From: Pseudomonas azotoformans
GTDB lineage: Bacteria > Pseudomonadota > Gammaproteobacteria > Pseudomonadales > Pseudomonadaceae
Length of the DNA stretch: 64,000 nucleotides
Direction: 5' to 3'
Assembly (NCBI RefSeq): GCF_900103345.1
Contig: NZ_LT629702.1
Coordinates: forward strand, 3,286,001 to 3,350,000
Shown: positions 15,931 through 35,171 of the stretch, piece after piece
Numbering within the stretch: the first letter of the stretch is position 1
Layout of the letters: every line of letters begins with the position of its first letter
Program-made: the position numbers and the translations under genes
The notes under the pieces: generated by a model
The model's database searches: none
What the model was told of the DNA's origin: nothing
What the model saw: only the letters and a program-made list of their open reading frames with translations

Positions 15931-16533
15931 ATGAAACTGTATTTCTTCCCTCACGCCTGTTCCCTCGCACCGCATATCGTGCTGCGCGAATTGGCTTTGC
16001 CGTTCGACCTGGTGCTGGTCGATAACCAGGCCAAGACCACCGCCGAGGGCGAAGACTTCCTGCAGATCAACCCCAAGGGCTACGTCGCCGCCCTGAAGCT
16101 GGACAACGGCCAGGTACTCACCGAAGCCAGCGCGATCCTGCAATACCTCGCCGACCTGAAACCCGCCGCCGGCCTGGCGCCGGTCAATGGCAGCTGGGAG
16201 CGGGTGCGCTTGCAGGAATGGCTGAATTTTATCGCCACCGAGATTCATGGCGGCTTGGCGGTGTTCTTCAACGACGCGATCCAGGGCGACATGCGCGCGC
16301 TGTTCGAGGCCACGCTGTTCAAACGTTTCGCGGTGCTGGTGCAAACGCTGGAGCGCCAGGATTACCTGTTGGGGTCGCACTACTCGGTGGCGGATGCCTA
16401 CCTGTTCGTGGTGCTGCGCTGGGCGGCATTCCACGCGATTGACCTGGGCCAGTGGCCGGCGCTGGCGGCGTTTCAGCAACGCGTGGGTGAGCGACCTGCG
16501 GTGGTTGCCGCACTGGCCGCTGAAAACCCATGA
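15931..16533 (+). CDS. Glutathione S-transferase (GstA/beta-class-like)
   Basis: 200 residues. The N-terminus M-K-L-Y-F-F-P-H-A-C-S-L-A-P-H-I-V-L is the beta-class pattern with the active-site Cys at residue 10; N-P-K-G-Y-V-A-A-L and T-E-A-S-A-I-L-Q-Y-L give the G-site; Y-S-V-A-D-A-Y-L-F is the N-capping box. A cytoplasmic detoxification enzyme. Its last 61 bp overlap the convergent 3' end of the ammonia-lyase-fold gene. Confidence 0.93.
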   Translation: MKLYFFPHACSLAPHIVLRELALPFDLVLVDNQAKTTAEGEDFLQINPKGYVAALKLDNGQVLTEASAILQYLADLKPAAGLAPVNGSWERVRLQEWLNFIATEIHGGLAVFFNDAIQGDMRALFEATLFKRFAVLVQTLERQDYLLGSHYSVADAYLFVVLRWAAFHAIDLGQWPALAAFQQRVGERPAVVAALAAENP

Positions 16534-17903
16534 GTTGAGATGAAGCGCCCCAGCGCCAACACATCCACCGAGCCCGAGCGATCCTGATCCAGGTGCGCAA
16601 CCTGGCTGCGCACCTCGGCATGGATCTGCCCGGTGCCCTGCCCCAATCGCAACGTACCCCGCAGGTCCACCGCCTGCGCCGCGACGATCAGCTCAATACT
16701 GGCCAGCCACACCACCCGCTCGACCAACCGACGGGTCTTGTCGACCACCGCCAAGGCCTGCCCCGCATAATCTTCAACACGATCCGCCACCGGCACACTC
16801 ACCGCCGGCAGCGGATTGGCCAAATGGCCGATTTCCGCGACCAATGCCGAGCTGGTGCGCTGCAACGCCGCCATGCCGACATGGCCCGGTTGAGTGATCA
16901 GGAAGCGCGGCAAGTCACTGGACGCCGGCGAGAGCAACTTGGCGATGCGTTCGGCACTGCACGCTGCCACTCGACTCAGCGCCAGGCCCAGCCCTTCTGC
17001 GGCGAGCGCCAAATGCGTACTGTCGAAATTCGCCGTGGCCAACACCAGCGCTTCCTCGCTGATCAACGCCGGGTTGTCCGCGCCGCTGCGCAATTCCAAC
17101 TCGATCAGCGCATGCAACTGGTGCAACGCCTGCTGCGCCGCGCCTTGGACCACCGTGGCGCAGCGAAAGCTCAGCGGGTCTTGCAGGCGACGCGGGCCGT
17201 CCGCCAACTCGCCCGCCGCCAGCAACCGCAACAACGCCGCCGATTGCTCGGTTTGCCCTGGCGCCGGGCGCAGGCGTGAGGCCCAAGGCTGGAACGGGCT
17301 GAGGTTGGCGCGATAGCCCTCACACGACAACGCCAGCGCCGCGAGCAACGCCTCCAACGCCCGCTGTGCCTCGGCCACCAGCAACGCGCCGAGCCCGACG
17401 CTGGCGGCATTCGCCGAGACCAGCGCCAAGCCATCTTTACCGGTCAGCGGCACCGCCAGCGCCAGGCTCAGGTGCGCCAACGGCGCCAGGTCGCTCTCGC
17501 CCAAGGAGCCCAGCAACGGCACCTCGGGCTCGACGCCTGAGTTGAGCAGGTCGAGCAATGCCTGCGCCGCTGCCAGTGAAATTCCCGAGCGCCCCTGGGC
17601 CAGTCCGGCCAGGCGCACAGCGGTGATGGCGCGCAATTCCTGGCGGTTGGCAAGACGCCCCACCCCCACCGCCCGCCCCAACGGAATGCTCGCCTGCACC
17701 GGCGCCAGCGGCGTATCCACCGCCGCGCCAAGGCCGGTGTTGACGCCATAGATCGGCGTGCCTTCAGCCGCCAGTTTCACCAGCAGCCGATGACCTTCAT
17801 CGATACGTTGAAGCGCTTTTGGGCTGAAATCCGCTGGCACATCCTGCCGCGCAATCGTCAGCAGGTCCGCCAGCGTCAAGCCTTGGGGATCGAAGTGAAT
17901 CAT
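16473..17903 (-). CDS. Aromatic amino-acid ammonia-lyase-fold protein lacking the MIO triad
   Basis: 476 residues with the HAL/PAL fold: I-Y-G-V-N-T-G-L-G (residues 51-59, with the conserved Tyr), then G-S-L-G-E-S-D-L-A-P-L-A-H at 132-144. Family enzymes read G-S-V-G-A-S-G-D-L-A-P-L-A here, and Ala-Ser-Gly cyclises to the MIO electrophile; this protein has E-S in its place, one residue shorter. Other active-site changes against bacterial HAL: His83 is Arg77, Asn195 is Ser-like (V-S-A-N, 162-165), Tyr280 is Leu244; Gln241, Arg247 and Glu377 (V-E-D-Y-A) are kept. A normal MIO ammonia-lyase reaction is therefore unlikely. It is the last gene of a coupled four-gene operon (ATGA overlap with the OCD-like gene). 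The ergothionase branch of this fold is also reported to work without MIO; the function here is unproven. Confidence 0.85.
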   Translation of the reverse strand: MIHFDPQGLTLADLLTIARQDVPADFSPKALQRIDEGHRLLVKLAAEGTPIYGVNTGLGAAVDTPLAPVQASIPLGRAVGVGRLANRQELRAITAVRLAGLAQGRSGISLAAAQALLDLLNSGVEPEVPLLGSLGESDLAPLAHLSLALAVPLTGKDGLALVSANAASVGLGALLVAEAQRALEALLAALALSCEGYRANLSPFQPWASRLRPAPGQTEQSAALLRLLAAGELADGPRRLQDPLSFRCATVVQGAAQQALHQLHALIELELRSGADNPALISEEALVLATANFDSTHLALAAEGLGLALSRVAACSAERIAKLLSPASSDLPRFLITQPGHVGMAALQRTSSALVAEIGHLANPLPAVSVPVADRVEDYAGQALAVVDKTRRLVERVVWLASIELIVAAQAVDLRGTLRLGQGTGQIHAEVRSQVAHLDQDRSGSVDVLALGRFISTHGFSAASAATTAGRSPTRC

Positions 17904-18910
17904 GCCCAGCGCAACCGCTGGCCAATGCCCAGGCGCCTGGATTTCTCCAGCAGCGCATGGCCCAACGCGATGTCACTGAGGCTCAGCCCGCGATGCCAGA
18001 AAAGGATGGTTTCCTCGGGGGTTTCCCGGCCATTCTTCAAGCCGGCCACGATCTGGCCCAACTCGGCATGCAGGGTCTCGGCGCTGAGCTTTCCCGCGTC
18101 GACATGGGCGCGCAACGAACCGAACAGACCGCCCTTGCACTGGCCCCAATCATCCACCACCAACTTGCTCATGATGTCGGTGAGCGACAGTTCCACCGCG
18201 CTCATGGTGCCGTAGGGGACCACGAAGGCGCCGGGTTTGATCCACTCGGTGCGCAGCAGCGGTTCAGGCTGGTCCAGGCGCGAGGCCTCGACCACGATGT
18301 CGGCACCACGCACGGTGGACTCCCAATCGTCAGTGACGATCACCGGCTTGCCCAGGTCCCGGCGCAGGCGTTCGGCAAAGGCTTCGCGGCTTTCACTACG
18401 GCGTGAGTGCACGCGGATTTCCTCGAAGTCGAACAGGTGATCCAGCAGGCGCACGTTCCAGTAGGCGGTGCCACGCGCGCCGATATGCGCCAGCACTTTA
18501 CTGTCGGGCCGGGCCAGGTATTTGGCGCCGATGGCCGTGACCGCGCCGGTGCGCATATCGGTGATCGCCGAGGCATCGAGGATCGCCCTGGGAATACCGG
18601 TGGCCGGGTCCAGCAGGTTGAGGATCGCCAATTCCGAGGGCAGGCCCTTGCGGTAGTTGTCGACAAAATCCCCCACCACCTTGACCCCGGCGTAGCCGAT
18701 ATCCCCGCCCAGTACGCCGCGCAGCACATTGAAGTGGCCGTTGATCTCGCCGCCGGGAATCAGGTGGGTCCGCGGCTCGATCACCGCCTCGCCACGCCCC
18801 TGGATCGCCAGGCTGGCTTCGATGGCGCTGAGGATTTCATCGTTGGAGAGGCCCAGCTCGTCAATGTCGAGGCCGTTGAGAAAATCGATGTAGATCGGTT
18901 GCATGGTCAT
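17900..18910 (-). CDS. Ornithine cyclodeaminase/mu-crystallin family protein
   Basis: 336 residues. The catalytic-site Arg (E-P-R-T-H-L, residue 47), Lys (A-G-V-K-V, residue 77) and Arg (D-M-R-T-G-A, residue 120) of the family are present. The nucleotide loop reads I-G-A-R-G-T-A-Y-W-N instead of the usual G-x-G-x-Q-A, and the G-G-D-C-P-G-K-T-E-L region reads P-Y-G-T-M-S-A-V-E-L, so the catalytic Asp of true ornithine cyclodeaminase is missing. It is probably an NAD(P)-dependent imine/amino-acid dehydrogenase or lyase of another specificity. It overlaps both neighbours by 4 bp, so it is co-translated with them. Confidence 0.85.
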   Translation of the reverse strand: MTMQPIYIDFLNGLDIDELGLSNDEILSAIEASLAIQGRGEAVIEPRTHLIPGGEINGHFNVLRGVLGGDIGYAGVKVVGDFVDNYRKGLPSELAILNLLDPATGIPRAILDASAITDMRTGAVTAIGAKYLARPDSKVLAHIGARGTAYWNVRLLDHLFDFEEIRVHSRRSESREAFAERLRRDLGKPVIVTDDWESTVRGADIVVEASRLDQPEPLLRTEWIKPGAFVVPYGTMSAVELSLTDIMSKLVVDDWGQCKGGLFGSLRAHVDAGKLSAETLHAELGQIVAGLKNGRETPEETILFWHRGLSLSDIALGHALLEKSRRLGIGQRLRWA

Positions 18911-19833
18911 GGCGCCTTGAAGACAGCTTGCTGCACATCGACCTTTTTCGGGATCAGGCCGTTGGCGAAGAACAGGTCCGCCGTGCGTTGCTGGGTAGCG
19001 ACGTCCGAGGCTTGCAGCGGCCGTATCGGCGCGGGTGAGCGGTGTTCGAAGTAGCTTTTCACCACCGCCGGTTGCAGGCCCAGGGTCTTGGCCATCAGTG
19101 CAATGCTTTCTTCGGGCTTGTCGAGGGACAGGCGCTGCGCCTTGCCCAGGGTCTGGATGATCGTGCCGATGGACTGCGGGTACTGCTTGGCAAACGGGCT
19201 GCTGACCACAAAGAAACTGCCGGCCGGGTTGAGGCCCTGACCGTCACCCAGCACACGGGCGGAGCCGTCGACCACGGCGGCGGAGTAGTACGGGTCCCAC
19301 ACCACCCAGGCATCGACTTTGCCTTGCTCGAACGCAGCACGACCATCGGACGGCGACAGGTACACCACGTTCACGTCCTTCCATTGCAGGCCGGCGCGCA
19401 GCAGGCTTTTGAGGAACAGGTTGTGCGCGCTGGAGCCCTTGAGCAGCGCCACGCGCTTGCCCTTCAGTTCAGCCACGCTCTGCACCGGACTGGCCTTGGG
19501 CACCAGCACCGCTTCGGTCTTGCCCTCGTTGGGCTCGACGGCAAAGTATTGCAAGTCGATGCCGGCGGCCTGGGCAAAGATCGGCGGGATGTCGCCGATA
19601 TTGCCGATGTCCAGGCTGCCGCCATTCAGCGCTTCGATCAGCGGCGGGCCGCCGAGGAACTCGATCCACTGCACCTGCGTGCCGGGCAGCGCCGCTTCGA
19701 AGAGTTTGTGCTCACGGGCCAGCACCATGCTCACCGAGCTTTTCTGGTAGCCGATACGCAAGGTGGAGGGCTCGACCGCCAGCACCTGACCGGCGATCAA
19801 TGACAGTACCGCCGCAGCGAAGATTTTAAGCAT
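18907..19833 (-). CDS. SsuA-like periplasmic substrate-binding protein (sulfonate/nitrate family)
   Basis: 308 residues including a signal peptide (M-L-K-I-F-A-A-A-V-L-S-L-I-A-G-Q-V-L-A, cleavage about residue 19). The mature part starts L-R-I-G-Y-Q-K-S and contains F-L-G-G-P-P-L-I-E-A-L-N-G-G-S-L-D-I-G-N-I-G-D and V-D-A-W-V-V-W-D-P-Y, hallmarks of SsuA/TauA-type proteins. Known members deliver aliphatic sulfonates to an ABC importer. The start at 19833 shares one base with the stop of the upstream binding-protein gene (TGATG). No permease or ATPase gene is in the operon. Confidence 0.88.
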   Translation of the reverse strand: MLKIFAAAVLSLIAGQVLAVEPSTLRIGYQKSSVSMVLAREHKLFEAALPGTQVQWIEFLGGPPLIEALNGGSLDIGNIGDIPPIFAQAAGIDLQYFAVEPNEGKTEAVLVPKASPVQSVAELKGKRVALLKGSSAHNLFLKSLLRAGLQWKDVNVVYLSPSDGRAAFEQGKVDAWVVWDPYYSAAVVDGSARVLGDGQGLNPAGSFFVVSSPFAKQYPQSIGTIIQTLGKAQRLSLDKPEESIALMAKTLGLQPAVVKSYFEHRSPAPIRPLQASDVATQQRTADLFFANGLIPKKVDVQQAVFKAP

Positions 19834-20846
19834 CAGAGCGCCCCCTTGACCTTGGCCGCGACATCCGCCGGCACCCATTGCTGCCAGACATCTGGATGGT
19901 CCTTGAGGAAGGCTTCAGCCACTTGGCGGGGCGGCGTACGTTTCTCGCTCATGTCGCCGAGGATGCCATTGAGCAAATCAATCGGCAGGTCGACCTTTTC
20001 AAACACGCTCACCAGTTGCGGGTACTGCGCCTTGAACGGCGCCGACACACCAATTGCCAGGCGTGCCGGCATTGAGCGGGTACCGATGGGGTTGGGGTTT
20101 TTCGCGTCGGACAGGGTCTTCCAGGCGTCGGCGTTGAACGGCGGCTCTTCCAGCTTGACCAGCTTGAAGCGGCCCAGCAGCGGCGTTGGCGACCAGTAGT
20201 AGAACAACACCGGCTTGCCGCGACGGATCGACGACGCCACTTCGGCATCCAGCGCCGCACCGGAGCCGGTGCGGAAGTTGACGAAGCTGTCGGTGAGTTT
20301 GTAGGCCTTGAGTTTCTGGCTGTTGACGATCTCCGAGGTCCAGCCGGTGGGGCTGTTGAGGAAACGCCCACGGCTCGGGTCTTCCGGGTCGCGGAACACG
20401 TCCTTGTAGCGCGGCAGGTCGGCCACCGATTTCAGGTCCGGCGCCAGGGGTTTGATACCGCGCGCGGCATCGCCCTTGATCACGAACTCCGGCACCCACC
20501 AGCCTTCGGTGGCGCCCTTGACCGTGTCGCCCAGGCCGAACACCTTGCCCTCGTTTTCTGCCTTGACCCACGCCGGACTGCGCCCGGCCCATTCTTCGCC
20601 AATCACTTGGATATCGTCCTTGGCCAGGGCGGCTTCCAGGCTCACGGTGCTACCGGGCAAAGTGTCGGTGGGCAGGCCGTAGCCCTTCTCGACGATCAGG
20701 CGCAGCACCTCGGTGATCAGGCTGCCGCTTTCCCAGGTGATGTCACCGAAGTGGATGGGTTTGACGGGGTCGGCGGCCGCTGTCGGCTGCGCCAGAACGG
20801 CCAGTGCCAGCAGCGAGCAACCAAACAGGTGTTTAAGCTTTTTCAT
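19833..20846 (-). CDS. ProX-like glycine-betaine-type periplasmic binding protein
   Basis: 337 residues from the ATG at 20846, preceded by GAGG; an ATG at 20858 is less likely. Signal peptide M-K-K-L-K-H-L-F-G-C-S-L-L-A-L-A-V-L-A-Q then T-A-A-A. The mature part has the OpuAC/ProX pattern: I-H-F-G-D-I-T-W-E-S-G-S, later G-W-T-S-E-I-V-N, F-R-T-G-S-G-A-A-L-D-A-E and V-L-F-Y-Y-W-S-P. ProX-type proteins bind quaternary ammonium compounds through aromatic cages. It is the first gene of the coupled operon. A REPIN separates it from the TonB receptor gene upstream on the same strand. Confidence 0.87.
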   Translation of the reverse strand: MKKLKHLFGCSLLALAVLAQPTAAADPVKPIHFGDITWESGSLITEVLRLIVEKGYGLPTDTLPGSTVSLEAALAKDDIQVIGEEWAGRSPAWVKAENEGKVFGLGDTVKGATEGWWVPEFVIKGDAARGIKPLAPDLKSVADLPRYKDVFRDPEDPSRGRFLNSPTGWTSEIVNSQKLKAYKLTDSFVNFRTGSGAALDAEVASSIRRGKPVLFYYWSPTPLLGRFKLVKLEEPPFNADAWKTLSDAKNPNPIGTRSMPARLAIGVSAPFKAQYPQLVSVFEKVDLPIDLLNGILGDMSEKRTPPRQVAEAFLKDHPDVWQQWVPADVAAKVKGAL

Positions 20847-20892
20847 GCAGAACCTCATGGCGAATCAATTTCCAGAACACAGAAGATCCAGT

Positions 20893-21008: not shown

Positions 21009-23645
21009 TTAAAAGTCATAACTGAGCCGCGTGTAGTAAAAGGCCCCTTCCGGCGCCGACGGCGACAGGTAGCTGTACTGCTGGCCCGGGGTCTGGCGCA
21101 GGCGGGTGTTGAAGTCGTCGGGTTTGCTGTCGAACAGGTTGTTGGCGCCGATCGACAGTCGCAGTTGCTGGGTGAAGCAGTAGTTCACGTCCAGGTCGGT
21201 GTTCCATTGCGCGCCGAAGGTCTGGTCGTACTGGGCGTTGGCTGCACTGGCGGCGTATTTGCGGTACTCGCCGTAGCGGGTTTCGCTGAGGGCGATGGTC
21301 CAGGCGCCGATGCGGTGGGTGGCGCCGAGCACCAGCTTGTCTTCGGGGTAGCCGTGTTCGAGGAAACCACGGGCTTCGCGGGTGAGGATATCGAACCCGT
21401 TGGGGTTTTCGTGGACCTTCTCAATCGTGGTGCGCGCCTTGGTGTAACCGGCCGACAGGCTCAACGCGCCGTACTGCGCCAGGTCCAGGTTGTACTTGCC
21501 GACGATGTCGACACCCCGCGTGCGCGTATTGGCCGCGTTGGTCATGAACTGCGCCCAGGTGTACTGGCCAAACCCGGCCTGCTGCAGGATCTGCTCGGCA
21601 CGCGGCCCGGAAATGCCGCCGCTGTAGAGCAAGCGATCACGGATCGAAATCTGATAAGCGTCGAGGGTCAGCGACGCGTTTTCGACCGGCCGCAGCACCA
21701 GGCCCAGGGAGTAGTTGGTGGACTTCTCGGGCTTGAGCGGCTCGGCGCCCAGGGCACGGGCGGCCGGGTTGTCGGCCGGCAACATGCGGGTGAGCACCGG
21801 GTTGCCGTTGATGTCGACGTTGGTGGTAGTGGTCCACGACGTGCCGATCTGGCCTAGGGTCGGTGCACGGAACGAGTTGTTCAGCGTGGCACGCAAGCCC
21901 ACCTGCGGGGTGAAGTCATACCGCGCCGACAGCTTGCCAGTGGTGGCCGAACCGAAGTCCGAGTAGTGCTCGGTACGCCCGGCCAGGCCGACCTGGAATT
22001 TATCGGTGAGCTGATGTTCGAGGCCGAAGTACACACCGCCGACATCACGCTTGTAGGTGCCGGCGTCATCCGGCGTCAGGCCGGAGGCTTGCACCGCGCC
22101 GACCTGCACCCCGTTGATGCCGCCAAAGGAGTAAGACTCGTAGTCGCCGGCCTCCAGTCGATACTGCTCATGGCGGTAGGCAATGCCTGCCGAGACAGTC
22201 AGCGGGTGGCTCGACCAGCTGACGTCCAAATCCTTGGCGTAATCCAGGCCGAGGTTGGTCTGCTCGTTGACCAGGGTGGCCACGTCGAACTTGGTCGGGC
22301 TGTTCAAGCCATAGCTGGGGTTGAGAGTGTTGAAGGCCAGTTCATCGTGCTGGTCGCGCCCGTAGGTGGCGCTGAGGTCGAAGCGGCCGAGGGTCTCGTC
22401 TTCGTAGCGGGTGCCGACGGTGAGCGCACCGTCTTCATAGCGGTAGCGGTACTTGGGAATGGTGCCGTTGGGGTAGATGCCCGGCACGTTGTTCGGGTTG
22501 TTGGCCAACAGCGGCGGCGTGTTGTTCACCGATTTGTCCTGGCCGAAGGTGGCGAAACTGTAGAGGCGCCACTGGTCGTTGAGGCCGATTTCGGCATTCG
22601 CCGCCAGGTTGAATTTATCGCGCCCGGCGCCGCCCCATCGGGGGTCTTGCGGTTGGCCGTCGGCGACGTATTTGTCGCCAATGTCGGTGGGTTTGTTGTT
22701 GAGGGTGTTGAAGCTCAGCGTGAGGAAACCATCCCCCGGCAAGCCCAGGCCGTACCAGCCGTCGGTGGTCTTGCTGAAGCCGTCGCCCTGGGCGTATTTG
22801 CCCAGCTGGGTGTTGACCTGGCCGCCGCTGTCACGCTCCTTGAGCACGATGTTGACCACGCCCGCCACCGCATCCGAACCGTATTGAGCCGAGGCGCCAT
22901 CGCGCAGCACTTCGACGTGGTCGATGCTGCTGATGGGGATCATGTCCAGGTCCACCGGCTGCGCACCAATGAACGGCACGCCACCGGAGATGTTCACCAC
23001 TGCCGAGGCATGGCGGCGCTTGCCGTTGATCAGCACCAGCGTCTGGTCCGGTGCCAGCCCGCGCAGGGACGCGCCCTTGGGGTTCTGGCCACGGGTGGCG
23101 CTCTGGTTCTGCGGAAAGTTGAACGACGGCAGCAGTTGGAACAAAGCCTGGTTGAGGCTGGTGGCGCCGGTCTGCTTGAGTTCTTCGGCGTTGATCACGT
23201 CCACCGGCGCGGCGCTGGTGAGGGCGGTGGCATCACTGCGCCGGGTGCCGATGGCGACCACGCGGTCCAGGGTCGGTGCTTGCGCAGCACTGGTTTGCGC
23301 CTTGACGTTGCGGGTGGCGTTTTTGCTCGCGCCCTCCTTGATGATGAACGCGCCGTCCGGGCTGACCTGGACTTGCAGGCCGGTGCCCTTCAGCGCTGCG
23401 TCGACAGCCTGTTGCGCCGACAGTGAACCGTCCACGCTGGCCGAAGAATAGTTTGCCAACTGTGGCGTGAACGAGATCACTTGACCGCTTTGCCGACTGA
23501 TATTGAGCAGTACTTCATCCAACGGGCCAGGGGCGATGTGGTAGACCTGGCGCGCCTCTTCAGCACTGGCGGCGAACGCGAAAAACAGACTGGCCAACGG
23601 CACCAGGGCAAAGGTTCGACGCGGCACACGGTTGAACTGACTCAC
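21009..23645 (-). CDS. TonB-dependent outer-membrane receptor with STN signalling domain
   Basis: 878 residues from a GTG at 23645, which has a strong GGGGGGAG 6-7 nt upstream; upstream in-frame ATGs would add a non-signal tail and cover the promoter. Signal peptide ends at about residue 28 (A-A-S-A). STN domain about 32-104 (Y-H-I-A-P-G-P-L-D-E-V-L, then Q-A-V-D-A-A-L-K-G-T-G-L), plug about 130-245 (G-A-S-L-R-G-L-A-P-D-Q-T-L-V-L-I-N-G-K-R), then a 22-strand barrel ending in S-Y-D-F. The STN domain plus the adjacent FecR and FecI-type genes indicate a surface-signalling transducer. The substrate is not evident; a siderophore should not be assumed. An 18-bp block shared with the desaturase promoter lies at 23725-23742. 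Confidence 0.92.
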   Translation of the reverse strand: MSQFNRVPRRTFALVPLASLFFAFAASAEEARQVYHIAPGPLDEVLLNISRQSGQVISFTPQLANYSSASVDGSLSAQQAVDAALKGTGLQVQVSPDGAFIIKEGASKNATRNVKAQTSAAQAPTLDRVVAIGTRRSDATALTSAAPVDVINAEELKQTGATSLNQALFQLLPSFNFPQNQSATRGQNPKGASLRGLAPDQTLVLINGKRRHASAVVNISGGVPFIGAQPVDLDMIPISSIDHVEVLRDGASAQYGSDAVAGVVNIVLKERDSGGQVNTQLGKYAQGDGFSKTTDGWYGLGLPGDGFLTLSFNTLNNKPTDIGDKYVADGQPQDPRWGGAGRDKFNLAANAEIGLNDQWRLYSFATFGQDKSVNNTPPLLANNPNNVPGIYPNGTIPKYRYRYEDGALTVGTRYEDETLGRFDLSATYGRDQHDELAFNTLNPSYGLNSPTKFDVATLVNEQTNLGLDYAKDLDVSWSSHPLTVSAGIAYRHEQYRLEAGDYESYSFGGINGVQVGAVQASGLTPDDAGTYKRDVGGVYFGLEHQLTDKFQVGLAGRTEHYSDFGSATTGKLSARYDFTPQVGLRATLNNSFRAPTLGQIGTSWTTTTNVDINGNPVLTRMLPADNPAARALGAEPLKPEKSTNYSLGLVLRPVENASLTLDAYQISIRDRLLYSGGISGPRAEQILQQAGFGQYTWAQFMTNAANTRTRGVDIVGKYNLDLAQYGALSLSAGYTKARTTIEKVHENPNGFDILTREARGFLEHGYPEDKLVLGATHRIGAWTIALSETRYGEYRKYAASAANAQYDQTFGAQWNTDLDVNYCFTQQLRLSIGANNLFDSKPDDFNTRLRQTPGQQYSYLSPSAPEGAFYYTRLSYDF

Positions 23646-23673
23646 TTTGGCTCCCCCCAAGGAAACTCGAGAA

Positions 23674-23690
23674 CGCTGCTCCCCGCAGCG
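23674..23690 (-). other. 5'-leader hairpin of TonB receptor mRNA
   Basis: CGCTGC-TCCCC-GCAGCG, a 6-bp stem between the predicted promoter and the GTG start. The desaturase leader has a comparable hairpin at 27059-27081. Confidence 0.4.
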
Positions 23691-23724
23691 CTTACGGGAG
23701 TGATGTGGCACGGCCGGGGGAAAA

Positions 23725-23742
23725 CTTGCAGATCGTTTGGTT
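23725..23742 (-). promoter_or_regulatory. Predicted ECF-sigma promoter element, TonB receptor
   Basis: On the minus strand AACCAAACGATCTGCAAG, followed by TTTTCCC, about 80 bp before the receptor start. The identical 18-mer occurs upstream of the desaturase gene (27101-27118). The two genes flank the fecR-fecI pair, so the block is the best candidate for the promoter read by the local sigma factor. Confidence 0.65.
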
Positions 23743-23760
23743 ATGTCGATAGAACCGAGG

Positions 23761-24705
23761 TTATGCAGCATTGACGGTCACCCACAGGCCGGTACGGCGG
23801 GTGATGTGAATGGGCAAGGTGCGCGCCAGGGTGTCGAGGATTTGCTGAGGGTTATCCAGCCGGTACAGGCCGCTGACGCGCAGGCCCGCCACTGCCGGGT
23901 CCAGGCGCAACACGCCGTTGTGATAAGGCCGCAGCGCCTCGATGACTTCAGCCAGCGGGCGGTCGCGCACTTGCAGGAAGCCGTCGACCCAGGCCGTGGC
24001 ACCGAAGGAACTGGCCTGCACCGGACCGAAACCGGCACGGTCGTAATGCACCGCATGGCCGGCGGCAAGTTGCAGGCGCTCGCCGTTCTGGCCGTCGATT
24101 TCTACCGCGCCGTTTAGCGCGACGACCTGACCCTGCCCTGCCCGCTCGCGCACCAGGAGGCGGTTGCCGTAGGCGCGCAGACGCGCCTGGTCGGTCTGGA
24201 TCATGAAAGGCCGAATGCGATCGCCGGCCACCTTGGCCAGTAACTCGCCCTCGCGCAGGCGTACCAGGCGCCGTTGTGGGTCGAACTGGATATCCGCCGC
24301 GCTTTGTGCGTTGAGCAACAGCTCGCTGCCATCGTCCAACTTAACGGTGCGGCGCTCGCCGGTGCCTGTGCGGATATCTGCCGTGAGTTCCGCCAGAGGC
24401 ACACCCAGCGGCTTGGCCAACCAAGCCGCGCCGGCAGCCACACCCGCACCGACCAGCGCGACCTGCAACACCTGGCGGCGACTGGACGGTGCCGCCAATG
24501 CCTGCTGCAACAGCTGGCCGCTGACGCCTTGGGCCTGGGGAATCTGGAACACGCCAAGGCGCGTTTCCAACTGTCGGCACAGCGCGTCATGGCGTGGGTC
24601 GGCGGCACGCCAATGTTGGTAGCGCTGCCAGTCGCGCGCCGTGGCCTGGCCGGAACGCAGCAGCACGTACCAGCGCGTAGCGTCGTCGATCAGGTCGTCG
24701 TTCAT
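23761..24705 (-). CDS. FecR-family anti-sigma/signal transducer
   Basis: 314 residues from the ATG at 24705, overlapping the sigma gene by 4 bp. The cytoplasmic N-terminus has A-T-R-W-Y-V-L-L-R-S-G and W-R-A-A-D-P-R-H (FecR N-terminal domain), one membrane helix lies at about residues 78-98 (V-A-L-V-G-A-G-V-A-A-G-A-A-W-L-A), and the periplasmic FecR domain contains T-G-T-G-E-R-R-T-V-K-L-D-D-G-S and the C-terminal A-W-V-D-G-F-L. It relays the receptor signal to the sigma factor. Co-transcribed with fecI. Confidence 0.93.
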   Translation of the reverse strand: MNDDLIDDATRWYVLLRSGQATARDWQRYQHWRAADPRHDALCRQLETRLGVFQIPQAQGVSGQLLQQALAAPSSRRQVLQVALVGAGVAAGAAWLAKPLGVPLAELTADIRTGTGERRTVKLDDGSELLLNAQSAADIQFDPQRRLVRLREGELLAKVAGDRIRPFMIQTDQARLRAYGNRLLVRERAGQGQVVALNGAVEIDGQNGERLQLAAGHAVHYDRAGFGPVQASSFGATAWVDGFLQVRDRPLAEVIEALRPYHNGVLRLDPAVAGLRVSGLYRLDNPQQILDTLARTLPIHITRRTGLWVTVNAA

Positions 24706-25211
24706 TCCAGGCACAGCCGCAGGCACCGGTTGAAGGCGCGGGTCATGTAGTCGCTGACCGAACGCTGGGAAATCCCCAGCTCGGCGGCGATTTCCGGGTA
24801 GGTCAGGCCATTGAGTTGCGAAAGCAAAAAGGTCGCCTTGACCTTGGCGGGCAAGCCGTCGAGCAACTGGTCGATGGCGTGCAAGGCCTCAAGCATTTGC
24901 GCCAGCTCTTCCGGGGATGGCGCGGTGGACGTCGCCTCGTTATCGAGAGCGTCGAGGTAGGCACGCTCCAGGTCACGGCGACGCCACAGCTGGTACATCA
25001 GGCGCTGGGCGATGGTGGTGAGCAAGGCGCGGGGCTGGCGGATCGGCACCACGCCCGGCGCACTCAGGAGCTGGACGAAGGTGTCGGCGGCAATGTCTTC
25101 GGCGTGGGCGCGGGAATCGAGGTGGCGATGCAAACGGCTGCACAGCCAGTCGTAATGACTGCGGAACAATCCGCCCACGTAATCGCTGTGAGAAGTGTCG
25201 GCGCCGGACAT
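24702..25211 (-). CDS. FecI-type ECF sigma factor
   Basis: 169 residues with region 2 (H-A-E-D-I-A-A-D-T-F-V-Q-L) and region 4 (L-N-G-L-T-Y-P-E-I-A-A-E-L-G-I-S-Q-R-S-V), as in iron-starvation-type sigma factors. GGAG precedes the ATG. It forms a signalling module with FecR and the STN receptor downstream. Likely targets are the receptor gene and the desaturase operon, which share an 18-bp promoter block; no copy of the block is seen ahead of this gene itself. No clear Fur box was found in the AT-rich upstream region. Confidence 0.93.
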   Translation of the reverse strand: MSGADTSHSDYVGGLFRSHYDWLCSRLHRHLDSRAHAEDIAADTFVQLLSAPGVVPIRQPRALLTTIAQRLMYQLWRRRDLERAYLDALDNEATSTAPSPEELAQMLEALHAIDQLLDGLPAKVKATFLLSQLNGLTYPEIAAELGISQRSVSDYMTRAFNRCLRLCLE

Positions 25212-25319: not shown

Positions 25320-26111
25320 TTATTGAAGCACTGGATAACCGGCACTGACGGCCTGATCCTGGTAGTTCAATAGCACCGCATAGTCGCTTTCGTTGGCGGG
25401 GAGCACTTCGTGCAAGCCCAGTGTCTCGGCCACCTCGGGCAAGTCCTGCAACGCCTGGTTCATCGCCCGGCGGATCTGAACCACCTGTTCATCGCTCAAG
25501 CCCAACGGGCCGATATAGGGCAAGGTCGGGCTCGGCGCACTGCGGGTAACGATGCGCAGGCCCGCCACCTCCTGTGGCGCGAAACGGGCGAGGTAGTCGT
25601 AGGTCACGCTGTCGATGGCGGCGAGGTCGGCACGGTCTTCGCGCAGCCAGCGCAGGCTCTCGCGGTGGGCGCCGCTGATACCGACACTGGCGAAGAAACG
25701 CCCGTCGCGTTGCAGGGGGGCAAGGCGTTCGCGCAACAGGTTCATGCCGCTGTTGGAGTCGTGGCCGTTGATCACGCCACGGCTGTTGTGGAAGTCCGCC
25801 AGGCGGTGGCGCGGGTTGTCGTCGCGGGTCAGCAGCAGGCTGCAATGTTCGCCCTGGCTGCTGTGGGGTAACTCATAGCGCGGTCGACCGATCACGCGGA
25901 CCTTACCGCGCAACTGGGTCATCAGTGGATAACCGCAGGTCTGGGTCACCAGCAATTCGGGGGCCAGCCACAGGCCGGGCAAGTCGAGACGATCGGCATT
26001 GAGACGGCGCAGCCCAAGGTGTTCAAGGATGCGCGCCAGCCACTGTTGGCTGGCCTGCCGGACCGGCTCGGGCGCGACATACATCAGCAGTTCGGCGTAG
26101 TGCTCACTCAT
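25320..26111 (-). CDS. PhnD-like binding protein without signal peptide
   Basis: 263 residues with the PhnD/phosphonate-binding fold: G-Y-P-L-M-T-Q-L-R-G-K-V, later N-G-H-D-S-N-S-G-M-N-L-L-R, V-G-I-S-G-A-H-R-E-S-L-R-W-L and D-L-A-A-I-D-S-V-T-Y. The N-terminus (M-S-E-H-Y-A-E-L-L-M-Y-V-A-P-E-P) is not a signal peptide, so the protein is probably cytoplasmic and not an ordinary ABC binding protein. It begins 9 bp after the desaturase stop, so it is in that operon and under the same predicted sigma-dependent promoter. The ligand is unknown. Confidence 0.8.
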   Translation of the reverse strand: MSEHYAELLMYVAPEPVRQASQQWLARILEHLGLRRLNADRLDLPGLWLAPELLVTQTCGYPLMTQLRGKVRVIGRPRYELPHSSQGEHCSLLLTRDDNPRHRLADFHNSRGVINGHDSNSGMNLLRERLAPLQRDGRFFASVGISGAHRESLRWLREDRADLAAIDSVTYDYLARFAPQEVAGLRIVTRSAPSPTLPYIGPLGLSDEQVVQIRRAMNQALQDLPEVAETLGLHEVLPANESDYAVLLNYQDQAVSAGYPVLQ

Positions 26112-26120
26112 GCTCGTCTC

Positions 26121-27050
26121 TCACGCAAAGGGGTGCCGGGGGCTGTCGATGGCCTTGAGCCCGTGGCGGCCGATCAACTGGCCGTAGCCTTGCACCAGAA
26201 AGCCACCACTGCGCGCGATCCATTGTTCACGCCGGGCGCGATAGACCGTGGGCAGCAAGTACCAGGGCAGTTTCGGCAAATCGTGGTGCACCAGGTGCAG
26301 GTTGTTATTGAGGAACAGCCAGGTCCACGGCCAGGACGCTTCGTTGAGCACGCTGCGTTGCTCGGGCCGGGGGTGCGGGCGGTGTTCATAGTAGGAACGG
26401 ATCGAGGCCAGGGACAAGGCCGGCACACTGACCAGCAGCAGGTAATGCCCCACCGACAGCGCGCTGTAGTGGGCGATGAAACCCAGCATCAGCACGGTGA
26501 CAGCACCGTGGGCCAGCCACATCGGCCACACCTGGGGCAGGCGCTGGCATTCATGGCGGATCAGGCGGCCAATCGACAAAGGGGCAGAAAGCAGGAAGCG
26601 GCCGAGTACGGTCTTGGTCACCCCATGCACGCCGCGTTCGAACAGCGAGCTGTGGTCCCATTGCTGCTGGGTGAGGTAGCGGCTTTCCGGGTCGACGCCC
26701 GGCAGGGTCAGGTCTGCGTCGTTGTGGTGCAGCAGATGGCTGTCGCGGTACAGCGTGTAGGGGTACCACACGGCAAAGGGTGCATAGCCGAGAAGCTTAT
26801 TGAGCAGCAGCGAAGGGGTGGGATGGCCGTGGAGCAGTTCGTGTTGGACCGACAGCCACAGCGTCACGAGCGGGATCAACAGCAGTGTGCTCAACCACAG
26901 GCCCAGCCAATGGCTGCCGAGGATCACGGCGAACCAACCGGCGTAGATGCCGATCAACAGCAGCCAGGTCGGCCACTCGGTTCTGGCGGTAAAGCGTTGG
27001 GCCAGGGTTTCGATTTCCCGGCGTTGGGCAGGATCAAGGTAGTGGGCCAT
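26121..27050 (-). CDS. Membrane fatty acid desaturase-like di-iron protein
   Basis: 309 residues from the ATG at 27050. The three histidine clusters of membrane desaturases are present in order: H-E-L-L-H-G-H (70-76), H-L-L-H-H (105-109) and H-L-V-H-H (252-256), with hydrophobic helices before and between them. It probably introduces a double bond into, or hydroxylates, a lipid or other hydrophobic compound at the inner membrane. The start at 27050 is a normal length; a longer in-frame start at 27086 is less likely. It is preceded by the 18-bp block shared with the TonB receptor and followed by the PhnD-like gene. Desaturases are not usual targets of FecI-type sigma factors. Confidence 0.88.
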   Translation of the reverse strand: MAHYLDPAQRREIETLAQRFTARTEWPTWLLLIGIYAGWFAVILGSHWLGLWLSTLLLIPLVTLWLSVQHELLHGHPTPSLLLNKLLGYAPFAVWYPYTLYRDSHLLHHNDADLTLPGVDPESRYLTQQQWDHSSLFERGVHGVTKTVLGRFLLSAPLSIGRLIRHECQRLPQVWPMWLAHGAVTVLMLGFIAHYSALSVGHYLLLVSVPALSLASIRSYYEHRPHPRPEQRSVLNEASWPWTWLFLNNNLHLVHHDLPKLPWYLLPTVYRARREQWIARSGGFLVQGYGQLIGRHGLKAIDSPRHPFA

Positions 27051-27058
27051 CGGCAGCT

Positions 27059-27081
27059 CAGAGCAGGTGTTTCCTGCTCTG
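27059..27081 (-). other. 5'-leader hairpin of desaturase mRNA
   Basis: CAGAGCAGG-TGTTT-CCTGCTCTG, a perfect 9-bp stem ending about 9 bp before the ATG, between the predicted promoter and the gene; it could mask ribosome binding. No strong Shine-Dalgarno is seen outside it. Confidence 0.5.
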
Positions 27082-27100
27082 TGCAATGGCGCGGGAAAAT

Positions 27101-31396: not shown

Positions 31397-33088
31397 TTAC
31401 TTTTTAAGACCGAGCTTCTTCAACTCTTCATCGCGCAGCTCACGGCGCAGGATCTTGCCCACGTTGGTGGTCGGCAATGCATCGCGGAATTCCACGGCCT
31501 TGGGCACTTTGTACGCAGTGACGTTGGCACGCATATGCTCCATCACTTGGTCCTTGGTCAGGGTGGCACCCGGCTTGACCACGATGAACAGCTTGATGTG
31601 CTCCCCGGACTTTTCGTCCGGCACACCGATGGCCGCGCACTGCAGCACGCCCGGCAGGCCTGCCAGTACGTCTTCCAGTTCATTGGGGTACACGTTGAAG
31701 CCCGAGACGAGGATCATGTCCTTCTTGCGATCGACGATGCGCATGTAGCCGTCCGGCTGGATGATCGCGATGTCGCCGGTCTTGAGCCAGCCTTCGCTGT
31801 CGAGCATCTCGTCGGTGGCGTCCTGGCGCTGCCAGTAGCCCTTCATCACCTGCGGGCCTTTGACGCACAGCTCGCCGGTTTCACCCAGTGCGAGTTCAGT
31901 GCCGTCATCGGCGATGACTTTACACACGGTGGACGGCACCGGGATGCCGATGGTGCCGATCTGGATATGCTGGATCGGGTTCACGGTGGCCACCGGGCTG
32001 GTCTCGGTCATGCCGTAGCCTTCGCAGATGCCACAACCGGTCACCGCCTTCCAACGCTCGGCCGCTGCCAGTTGCAGGGCCATGCCGCCGGACAGGGTGA
32101 CTTTAAGCGCGGAGAAATCCAGCTTGCGGAACGCTTCGTTGTTGCACAGCGCCACAAACAGCGTGTTCAAGCCGACAAAGCCGCTGAACTTCCACTTCGA
32201 CAGTTCCTTGACCATCGCCGGCAGGTCGCGAGGGTTGCTGATCAGGATGTTGTGGTTGCCGATCAGCATCATCGCCATGCAATGAAAGGTGAACGCATAG
32301 ATGTGGTAAAGCGGCAGCGGCGTGATCAGGATCTCGCAGCCTTCATTGAGGTTGGAGCCCATCAGCGCCTTGCATTGCAACATGTTGGCGACCAGGTTGC
32401 GGTGGGTGAGCATCGCGCCCTTGGCCACGCCGGTGGTGCCGCCGGTGTATTGCAGCACGGCCACATCGCTGCTGGCCGGGCTGACGTCGCTGACCGGTTG
32501 GCCGTGCCCCTTGGCCAGCACGTCGTTGAACTTGATCGCCTTGGGCAGGTGATACGCCGGGACCATTTTCTTCACGTACTTGATGACGCTGTTGATCAGC
32601 AGGCGCTTGAGCGGCGGCAACAGGTCGGCGACTTCGGTGACGATCACATGCTTGACGGCGGTCTTGGGCACGACCTTTTCCGCCAGGTGCGCCATGTTGG
32701 CCAGGCACACCAGGGCCTTGGCGCCGGAGTCGTTGAATTGGTGTTCCATTTCCCGCGCGGTGTACAGCGGGTTGGTGTTGACCACGATCAGGCCGGCGCG
32801 GATGGCGCCGAACACGGCGACCGGGTATTGCAGGACGTTGGGCAGTTGCACGGCGATTCGATCGCCGGGCTTCAAGTCGGTGTGCTGTTGCAGGTACGCG
32901 GCGAAGGCGCCGGACAGTTCGTACAATTCACCGTAGGTGATTGTCTTGCCCAGGTTGCTGAAAGCCGGTTTGTTGGCGAAGCGCTGGCAGGACTGCTTCA
33001 GTACCGCCTGAATATTCGGATACTCGTCTGGATTGATTTCTGCGGCAATCCCGGCGGGGTACTTATCCTTCCAAAAGTCTTCGTTCAT
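31397..33088 (-). CDS. fadD1: Long-chain acyl-CoA synthetase FadD1
   Basis: 563 residues, full-length ANL enzyme. Y-T-G-G-T-T-G-V-A-K-G-A-M-L-T-H is the AMP-binding P-loop, G-Y-G-M-T-E-T-S-P-V the adenine/carboxylate motif, G-W-L-K-T-G-D-I the hinge-region motif and a C-terminal catalytic Lys sits near G-K-I-L-R-R-E. It activates exogenous fatty acids as they cross the inner membrane. GAGGAG precedes the ATG. The order fadD1-fadD2-hydrolase-phaJ1 matches P. aeruginosa PA3299-PA3302. Confidence 0.95.
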   Translation of the reverse strand: MNEDFWKDKYPAGIAAEINPDEYPNIQAVLKQSCQRFANKPAFSNLGKTITYGELYELSGAFAAYLQQHTDLKPGDRIAVQLPNVLQYPVAVFGAIRAGLIVVNTNPLYTAREMEHQFNDSGAKALVCLANMAHLAEKVVPKTAVKHVIVTEVADLLPPLKRLLINSVIKYVKKMVPAYHLPKAIKFNDVLAKGHGQPVSDVSPASSDVAVLQYTGGTTGVAKGAMLTHRNLVANMLQCKALMGSNLNEGCEILITPLPLYHIYAFTFHCMAMMLIGNHNILISNPRDLPAMVKELSKWKFSGFVGLNTLFVALCNNEAFRKLDFSALKVTLSGGMALQLAAAERWKAVTGCGICEGYGMTETSPVATVNPIQHIQIGTIGIPVPSTVCKVIADDGTELALGETGELCVKGPQVMKGYWQRQDATDEMLDSEGWLKTGDIAIIQPDGYMRIVDRKKDMILVSGFNVYPNELEDVLAGLPGVLQCAAIGVPDEKSGEHIKLFIVVKPGATLTKDQVMEHMRANVTAYKVPKAVEFRDALPTTNVGKILRRELRDEELKKLGLKK

Positions 33089-33482: not shown

Positions 33483-35171
33483 TCAGGCAATATCGCGCAA
33501 CTCACGCCGCAAGATCTTGCCCACCGGCGTCATCGGCAACGAGTCGCGCAACACAATATGCTTAGGCACCTTGTACCCCGTGAAGTTGGTCTTGCAGTAC
33601 GCCTTCAACTCCTCAAGGCTCACCCCTTCGGCACGCGCCACCACGAACAGCTTCACCGCTTCCCCGGTGCGGTCATCCGGCACACCGATCACGGCGCAGT
33701 TGGCCACCGCCGGGTGGGCCATCACCACGTCTTCGATCTCGTTGGGGTACACGTTGAAACCCGAGACGATGATCAGGTCTTTCTTGCGGTCGACGATGCT
33801 GACGAAACCATCGGCATCGATCACCGCGATATCGCCAGTCTTCAGCCAGCCTTCGGCGTCCAACGCCTCGGCAGTGGCGGCCGGTTGCTGCCAGTAGCCC
33901 TTCATCACCTGCGGGCCCTTGATGCACAACTCACCGCGCTCGCCCAACGGCAACTCGTGACCTTGATCGTCGATGACTTTCATCGCCGTGCCCGGCACCG
34001 GCAGGCCCACGGTGCCCAGGCGCGACTGGCTGCCGTAGGGGTTGGTACTGGCCACCGGCGAGGTCTCGGTCAGGCCGTAGCCTTCACCGATGGAACAGCC
34101 GGTGATGGCCTTCCAGCGCTCGGCCGTGGCCTTCACCAGTGCAGTGCCGCCGGAATTGGTGATCTTGAGGTGGGAGAAGTCCAGGGTCTTGAAGTCCGGA
34201 TGGTCCATCAACGCCACAAACAGCGTGTTCAGCCCCAGCAGGCAGGAGAACCGCCACCTTTTCAGTTCCTTGATAAACCCGCCGATATCCCGCGGATTGG
34301 TGATCAACACGTTATGGTTGCCGGTCACCATCATACACATGCAGTTCGCCGTGAACGCATAGATGTGGTACAGCGGCAGCGGCGCAATCATCACCTCCTG
34401 CCCTTCCCTCACTAGCGGCTGGCCATCATCGGTGACCTGGGACATGCACGCCCGCGCCTGTTGCATGTTCGCCACCAGGTTGCCGTGGGTGAGCATCGCG
34501 CCCTTGGCCAGGCCGGTGGTGCCGCCGGTGTATTGCAGCACCGCGATGTCGTCCAGGGTCACCGGGTGGCGGGTCACGCCCAGGCCCGCGCCCATGCGCA
34601 GGGCGCGCTTGAATGACACCGCGCGCGGCAGGTTGTAGGCCGGGACCATCTTCTTGACCTTGTCGACCACCGTGTTGATCAGCCAGCCTTTGGCAGCGGG
34701 CATGAAATCGCCCATCTTGGCTTCGATCAGGTAGTCGATCTCGGTGTCGCTGCACACCTCCTGCACCCGCGAACCGAACAGGTTGAGGTAGACCAGCGCA
34801 CGCACGCCGGCGTCCTTGAACTGGTGACGCATCTCGCGCGGGGTGTACAGCGGGTTGGTGTTGACCACGATCAGCCCGGCGCGCAAAGCGCCGAACACGG
34901 CAATCGGGTAATGCAGCACGTTGGGCATCTGCACTGCGATGCGCTCGCCCGGCTTGAGGTCGGTGTGCTGTTGCAGGTAGCCGGCGAACGCAGCGCTCTG
35001 GCGCTCCAGCTCGGCGTAGGTCAGGGTGATGCCCATGTTGCTGAATGCCGGACGGTCGGCGAAGGCCTTGCAGGAGCGCTCGAAGACTTCGATCACCGAC
35101 TTGTAGGCAGAAAGGTCGATGTCGTTGGGAACGCCCGCTGCGCGTTTGTCATTCCAGAAATCAGGTTGCAT
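33483..35171 (-). CDS. fadD2: Long-chain acyl-CoA synthetase FadD2
   Basis: 562 residues, paralogue of FadD1 in tandem. Y-T-G-G-T-T-G-L-A-K-G-A-M-L-T-H, G-Y-G-L-T-E-T-S-P-V, G-W-L-K-T-G-D-I and G-K-I-L-R-R-E are all present, so both copies should be active. GAGGAC precedes the ATG. It is divergent from the lysophospholipase gene. In P. aeruginosa the two FadD paralogues differ in preferred chain length. Confidence 0.95.
   Translation of the reverse strand: MQPDFWNDKRAAGVPNDIDLSAYKSVIEVFERSCKAFADRPAFSNMGITLTYAELERQSAAFAGYLQQHTDLKPGERIAVQMPNVLHYPIAVFGALRAGLIVVNTNPLYTPREMRHQFKDAGVRALVYLNLFGSRVQEVCSDTEIDYLIEAKMGDFMPAAKGWLINTVVDKVKKMVPAYNLPRAVSFKRALRMGAGLGVTRHPVTLDDIAVLQYTGGTTGLAKGAMLTHGNLVANMQQARACMSQVTDDGQPLVREGQEVMIAPLPLYHIYAFTANCMCMMVTGNHNVLITNPRDIGGFIKELKRWRFSCLLGLNTLFVALMDHPDFKTLDFSHLKITNSGGTALVKATAERWKAITGCSIGEGYGLTETSPVASTNPYGSQSRLGTVGLPVPGTAMKVIDDQGHELPLGERGELCIKGPQVMKGYWQQPAATAEALDAEGWLKTGDIAVIDADGFVSIVDRKKDLIIVSGFNVYPNEIEDVVMAHPAVANCAVIGVPDDRTGEAVKLFVVARAEGVSLEELKAYCKTNFTGYKVPKHIVLRDSLPMTPVGKILRRELRDIA

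Follow-up and report, generated by a model that had tools for sequence, protein, structure and literature searches.

The window, a 64,000-nucleotide stretch of the Pseudomonas azotoformans genome, carries on its minus strand an intact, ATG-initiated open reading frame of 476 codons whose translation matches the Pfam lyase family PF00221 (E 3.2e-104, split over two stretches; Table 1). This gene closes an operon spanning positions 20858 to 16473, in which it is preceded by genes for an OpuAC-type substrate-binding protein, an SsuA-type substrate-binding protein and an enzyme of the OCD/mu-crystallin family (referred to below as OCD). Successive genes meet in TGATG, ATGA and ATGA joints, and the lyase is translationally coupled to the OCD. 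Upstream on the same strand lie genes for a TonB-dependent receptor with an STN domain, FecR, FecI, a PhnD-like protein and a desaturase-family protein. At its 3' end the lyase gene shares 61 bases (16473-16533) with a GST gene (15931-16533) that runs towards it.

Table 1. Features of the lyase gene and its cassette in the window.
Feature	Coordinates	Strand	Basis or remark
MIO-free PF00221 lyase, 476 aa	16473..17903	minus	ORF and Pfam match
Codons of G132-SLGES-D138, would-be MIO site	17490..17510	minus	coordinates derived from residue numbers
Codon of Arg77, HAL His83 equivalent	17673..17675	minus	alignment
OCD/mu-crystallin family enzyme	17900..18910	minus	family match; ATGA overlap with lyase start
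SsuA-type (aliphatic sulfonate) substrate-binding protein	18907..19833	minus	likely ATG at 19833; listed ORF to 19878
OpuAC-type (glycine-betaine family) substrate-binding protein	19833..20858	minus	TGATG overlap with SsuA
TonB-dependent receptor with STN signalling domain	21009..23771	minus	
FecR-type regulator	23761..24726	minus	
FecI-type ECF sigma factor	24702..25211	minus	
PhnD-like periplasmic-binding-fold protein	25320..26111	minus	no signal peptide by eye
Fatty-acid-desaturase-family protein	26121..27086	minus	outer end of conserved cassette

The lyase lacks the MIO triad

Alignment with histidine ammonia-lyase (HAL) bore out a preliminary description of the locus, according to which Ala-Ser-Gly is replaced by Glu-Ser: the site reads G132-S133-L134-G135-E136-S137-D138 and is one residue shorter than the GSVGASGD of HAL and other MIO enzymes. 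The protein therefore lacks the triad that marks the MIO-dependent HAL, PAL and TAL enzymes and shows the combination that marks ergothionase, a PF00221 fold with no MIO triad. Its score against the HutH equivalog model TIGR01225 is 288 bits, below the cut-off of 539. Compared with the genome's own HutH, an intact enzyme encoded elsewhere, Tyr53 (Y52), Gln277 (Q241), Arg283 (R247), Phe329 (F293) and Glu414 (E377) are kept, and His83, Asn195 and Tyr280 are changed to R77, S163 and L244, which agrees with the three altered and four retained positions (Tyr52, Gln241, Arg247 and Glu377) described earlier. The likeness to HAL (the P. putida 1b8f family) thus extends to the fold and these five equivalents, but not to Ala-Ser-Gly, His83, Asn195 or Tyr280. 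Approximately 25 residues following the site (around residue 150; HAL 157-182) are missing in the window lyase and in 11 of 26 Pseudomonas loci, and are present in HAL, in ergothionase and in the remaining Pseudomonas loci.

An AlphaFold2 model of the lyase (mean pLDDT 90.5, pTM 0.92) is of low confidence in the last four residues. The model has the lyase fold, and T. denticola ergothionase is its first match (E 2.9e-29, TM 0.88). HAL matches equally well (TM 0.89), and the fold was dropped as a means of discriminating between the two. The matches also include a His89Phe TAL structure.

The altered site is conserved among relatives

A GTDB scan with the lyase returned 195 relatives, the best 80 of which (26 Pseudomonas and 54 other loci) were analysed. 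Ala-Ser-Gly occurs in none of these 80, so its absence holds for the close homologs as well. Of the 26 Pseudomonas loci, 25 have GES as the site motif; Enterobacterales and many alphaproteobacterial loci have GEA or GEG, and Mesorhizobium and Labrys have GAA. Values of dN/dS between the window lyase and its Pseudomonas relatives were 0.09-0.21 in all 11 pairs. Because the triad is missing from every relative analysed, GES is conserved and dN/dS is low, these comparisons indicate that the gene is under purifying selection and that its altered site reflects neither sequencing error nor decay. The remaining Pseudomonas locus, from P. bharatica CSV86 (L058), has GAS; its site Glu is changed to Ala (GSLGASD) in a gene that is otherwise intact (dN/dS 0.15 against L057).

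Lyase orthologs (E 1e-60 or better) are present in 12 of 149 sampled genomes of the genus, its own included. A class-wide search of 369 genomes at E 1e-45 found no lyase gene besides that of the window, and a plasmid search with the window lyase at E 1e-40 gave no match. When L117, a relative in which the 25-residue stretch is intact, served as the plasmid query, 848 records were returned, canonical lyases included. Outside Pseudomonas, identity to the window lyase is 40-57%.

The lyase belongs to a sister clade of ergothionase

In an unrooted 41-row tree of selected rows, which took in 28 of the 80 scanned loci together with plasmid and own-genome rows, all 36 MIO-free rows of the window/ergothionase type lie on one side of a single branch (100/100), with four MIO rows opposite. 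T. denticola ergothionase forms one clade with the Polaromonas and Paracoccus lyases (100/100), and the window lyase and 32 others form the sister clade (97/94). Of the earlier placement beside ergothionase, then, membership of the MIO-free ergothionase group stands, but the window lyase lies outside the clade of the characterised enzyme.

Ergothionase (PDB 6s7j, 6s7q), which PMC13405746 describes as MIO-free and trimethylamine-releasing, is the closest solved structure to the window lyase by sequence. The two share a G-E-x-D site of equal length and the QDPLSFRCA motif, and ergothionase L277, N196 and D188 are the equivalents of L244, N165 and D157, which are among nine alignment columns that set both MIO-free clades apart from HAL. 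On the other hand, their identity is 28%, the window lyase has R77 for His83 (the equivalent is mostly Arg throughout the window clade), four more columns are fixed differently, and the window lyase sits in an operon with an OCD, two binding proteins and TonB/ECF genes.

The lyase co-occurs with an OCD-family enzyme in a conserved cassette

The OCD gene is single-copy at E 1e-80, and its distribution over the 149 genus genomes matches that of the lyase exactly: the same 12 carry both, with the coordinates of the two genes abutting in all 12. In the fetched flanks of the best 80 of the 195 lyases, an OCD accompanies 25 of the 26 Pseudomonas lyases and 29 of the 54 others; outside Pseudomonas its identity is 69-80%. 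In the sole Pseudomonas locus without it (L049), the contig breaks off a short way upstream of the lyase; the 25 other loci without it comprise 19 of the His77 type, three from Labrys, L059, and two with short flanks (L069 and L082). The OCD gives near full-length matches to members of its family (alanine dehydrogenase 1omo, pyrroline-2-carboxylate reductase 6t3e and putative OCD 4m54), but does not reach the threshold of any of the 13 NCBIfam models listed.

Among the 80 loci, OCD accompanies 54 of 61 lyases with Arg77 and none of 19 with His77, a difference that amounts to approximately one contrast, 17 of the 19 His loci being titled Mesorhizobium. Since ergothionase-clade lyases near OCD genes carry His at this position, Arg77 is not required for an OCD partner, and the link between Arg77 and a sulfonate or the OCD is a hint only.

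A plasmid search with the OCD returned 84 records. Eleven of 14 fetched plasmid loci have a PF00221 gene near the OCD, ten of them MIO-free and one, from Rhodococcus, of the MIO type, and no lyase is near the OCD in the other three (L123, L129 and L130). On a Rhizobium tropici plasmid, the OCD adjoins a lyase 75% identical to a lyase of the window clade (L120). The Rhodococcus qingshengii plasmid (L126) carries the OCD and a PhnD-like gene beside an intact MIO histidine ammonia-lyase, where the same sulfonate chemistry might perhaps act on a non-methylated substrate. A Terrarubrum plasmid (L123) has the OCD, PhnD-like and desaturase genes with no lyase in the stretch; nearby are a B12-binding protein and a DUF1638 gene, of a kind that accompanies methylamine metabolism.

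The cassette neighbours recur in 11 other Pseudomonas genomes compared; ORF selection dropped single members in some loci of this comparison (the OCD in four of 11), and a direct OCD search found it in 12 of 12. Of the 26 Pseudomonas loci, 21 have the SsuA-type protein and 24 a desaturase-family gene; two of the 54 other loci also have the latter. Genes beyond the desaturase differ in two of eight genomes checked (L032 and L033), and because the same two (as L022 and L023) also differ beyond the lyase, the cassette moves as a unit. Tandem AMP-binding synthetase genes (31397-33088 and 33483-35171, approximately 60% alike) lie beside it in six of the eight. A siderophore or opine operon (TonB, FecIR and an SbnB-like OCD) was considered and dropped, as OCDs 61-80% identical occur in loci without that TonB gene. 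A role for the PhnD-like protein as a phosphonate receptor of the periplasm is likewise doubtful, no signal peptide being visible by eye in the copies read.

Neighbours elsewhere point to a probable betaine substrate and imidazole product

Outside Pseudomonas, an OsmF-type binding protein of the quaternary-amine family is found in 20 of 54 loci (OsmF being the best NCBIfam match, below cut-off), and the permeases and ATPase of a quaternary-amine system are present in the loci read. Although an enterobacterial binding protein (L061) shares an E-F-x-D-R-x-D-G stretch with the ergothioneine transporter EgtU, it has Phe and Tyr at the positions of Gly244 and Phe293, the marks of EgtU in PMC9732360, and was rejected as EgtU.

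Three lyases look secreted, with signal peptides judged by eye. In Paraburkholderia (L122), genes for OCD, urocanate hydratase and an ergothionase-clade lyase with a signal-peptide-like start follow in that order, in a locus that carries an MFS carrier. A Paracoccus stretch of approximately 15 kb holds an ergothionase-clade lyase with a similar start, hutU/G/H/I/F, a YeiH sulfate exporter, OCD and a PhnD-like gene, with a TRAP importer close to the lyase, hut and OCD group, and the Polaromonas lyase, which has a signal-peptide-like extension, adjoins the binding protein of a TTT importer. None of the three has an OsmF-type match, whereas many cytosolic lyases do.

HutU proteins of the Paraburkholderia and Paracoccus loci share 69% and 78% identity with HutU of the genome's hut region, a likeness that would favour urocanate as the final product. 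In two loci, OCD orthologs (74% and 68% identity) have urocanate hydratase or the greater part of the Hut genes close by. Overall, HutU, G, I or F was found near the OCD in two of 14 OCD plasmid loci, in one of 54 other genome loci (HutI, L063) and in none of 26 Pseudomonas loci. A YeiH exporter lies near the OCD in L119, L120 and L124, and in none of the fetched flanks of the 80 genome loci. LLM oxygenase pairs are present on a Sinorhizobium and two Rhizobium plasmids.

A proposed route from ergothioneine sulfonate to urocanate

From these data we infer, with moderate confidence, that the lyase is a MIO-free betaine lyase that, like ergothionase, would release trimethylamine, its substrate being a histidine betaine and most likely ergothioneine 2-sulfonate, and that the OCD would desulfonate the product to urocanate. 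Acid-base catalysis by the lyase would eliminate trimethylamine from the alpha carbon to leave an imidazole acrylate; ergothioneine and hercynine are near alternatives as substrate. Enzymes of the OCD family add hydride to N=C carbons that bear a carboxylate. Desulfonation, which is not among the listed activities of the family, is proposed because imidazole-2-sulfonate likewise offers an N=C carbon with an anionic group, as do the imino acids of the family: hydride from NAD(P)H would be delivered to C2, sulfite would leave, and the urocanate formed would be degraded by the usual Hut route. Substrate would be supplied through the TonB receptor and the pair of binding proteins. Arg77 occupies the position at which HAL His83 and TAL His89 select the side chain, and would suit an anion there. 

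Most of the functional evidence is carried by the coupled OCD and the conserved cassette. Evidence against the proposed route includes the intact MIO enzyme as one OCD partner, the three OCD loci with no lyase nearby, the sparseness of Hut and YeiH genes, the missing EgtU marks in the enterobacterial binding protein and the His at position 77 in ergothionase-clade lyases near OCD genes, and the scheme gives no role to the PhnD-like and desaturase genes. The elimination enzyme of the preliminary description is nevertheless made probable by the tree, the site comparison, the closest solved sequence and the quaternary-amine importers near orthologs; its "undescribed reaction" is not borne out, since trimethylamine elimination, the nearest chemistry already described, fits, and the 2022 pathway discussed below may cover it.

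Alternatively, the lyase could strip trimethylamine from another aromatic or heterocyclic betaine, such as tryptophan or tyrosine betaine, with the OCD acting on the product. Quaternary-amine importers near the clade would fit such a substrate, the lyases are less conserved outside Pseudomonas than the OCDs, and the lack of OCD at His77 loci suggests that substrates may differ inside the clade. We consider this unlikely, as the OCD orthologs beside urocanate hydratase or the Hut set argue for an imidazole product.

We are more doubtful still that the protein is a plain ergothionase acting on the thione ergothioneine, with sulfur removed by the desaturase-family protein or LLM oxygenases rather than by reductive desulfonation. 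The sister-group relationship to ergothionase and the oxygenase-type genes in the cassettes (the desaturase, chiefly in Pseudomonas, and the LLM pairs) speak for this, but Arg in place of His at position 77 and the frequent SsuA-type sulfonate-binding protein in Pseudomonas speak against it. A repurposed, non-catalytic or regulatory protein of the lyase fold, which the loss of the triad and three changed active-site residues might suggest, is improbable given that Y52, Q241, R247 and E377 are invariant in 37 of 37 MIO-free rows compared and that the gene shares an operon with an enzyme and binding proteins. That the gene was misread and encodes an ordinary MIO ammonia-lyase, for which PF00221 membership alone speaks, is refuted as regards the triad by its absence from all of the best 80 of 195 relatives, and such a reading is almost certainly wrong.

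Relation to known pathways

The kind of enzyme is already known, namely ergothionase. An "ergothioneine sulfonate catabolic pathway" (Yan, Huang, Zhang, ACS Catal. 2022) is cited for Agrobacterium radiobacter in PMC13405746; judged by its title, it fits the route proposed here, and the window lyase may be a member of that pathway. Should the pathway genes be the same as these, novelty would be left to the cassette in Pseudomonas, to how widely the sister clade extends and perhaps to the pairing with the OCD. A literature search, in a library that lacks the key pathway and ergothionase papers, returned no operon of an OCD with a MIO-free lyase and no C-S bond cleavage by the OCD/mu-crystallin family.

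A broader proposal is possible but tentative: that a large, mostly unassigned MIO-free branch is paired with an OCD performing reductive desulfonation of imidazole-2-sulfonate, that lyase location and importer type co-vary (cytosolic with a betaine importer, secreted with an organic-acid or MFS carrier), and that Arg77 makes the pocket suited to a sulfonate. If true, a sink for oxidised ergothioneine would be named and two testable enzymes provided. Annotated plasmid copies are named histidine or aromatic ammonia-lyases, so that a route by which bacteria of soil and plants release trimethylamine and sulfur may be misinterpreted.

Further MIO-free types in the family

An unrooted 57-row tree combined 17 of the 80 loci, 27 of a set of 50 ORFs and, among its 20 MIO rows, 16 from a phylum-wide sample. 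The 33 rows of the window/ergothionase type again lie on one side (SH-aLRT 100), and four rows in which the triad is lost in another way (GSVGY---LTH) cluster on their own among the MIO enzymes. Because these rows group apart, the tree suggests two or more losses of MIO within the family, the second being apparently independent. One such lyase is the second one of the hut region of the same genome, outside the window (5158541-5159914, L025), beside HutH at 5160070; it lacks the MIO triad, reading GSVGYLTHMAH with a three-residue gap after Y, and copies resembling it in L063, L184 and L185 share its tree group. Two further MIO-free types, GTLGEGD and GSIGCAD, occur in one family of the phylum (L175, L176 and L177).
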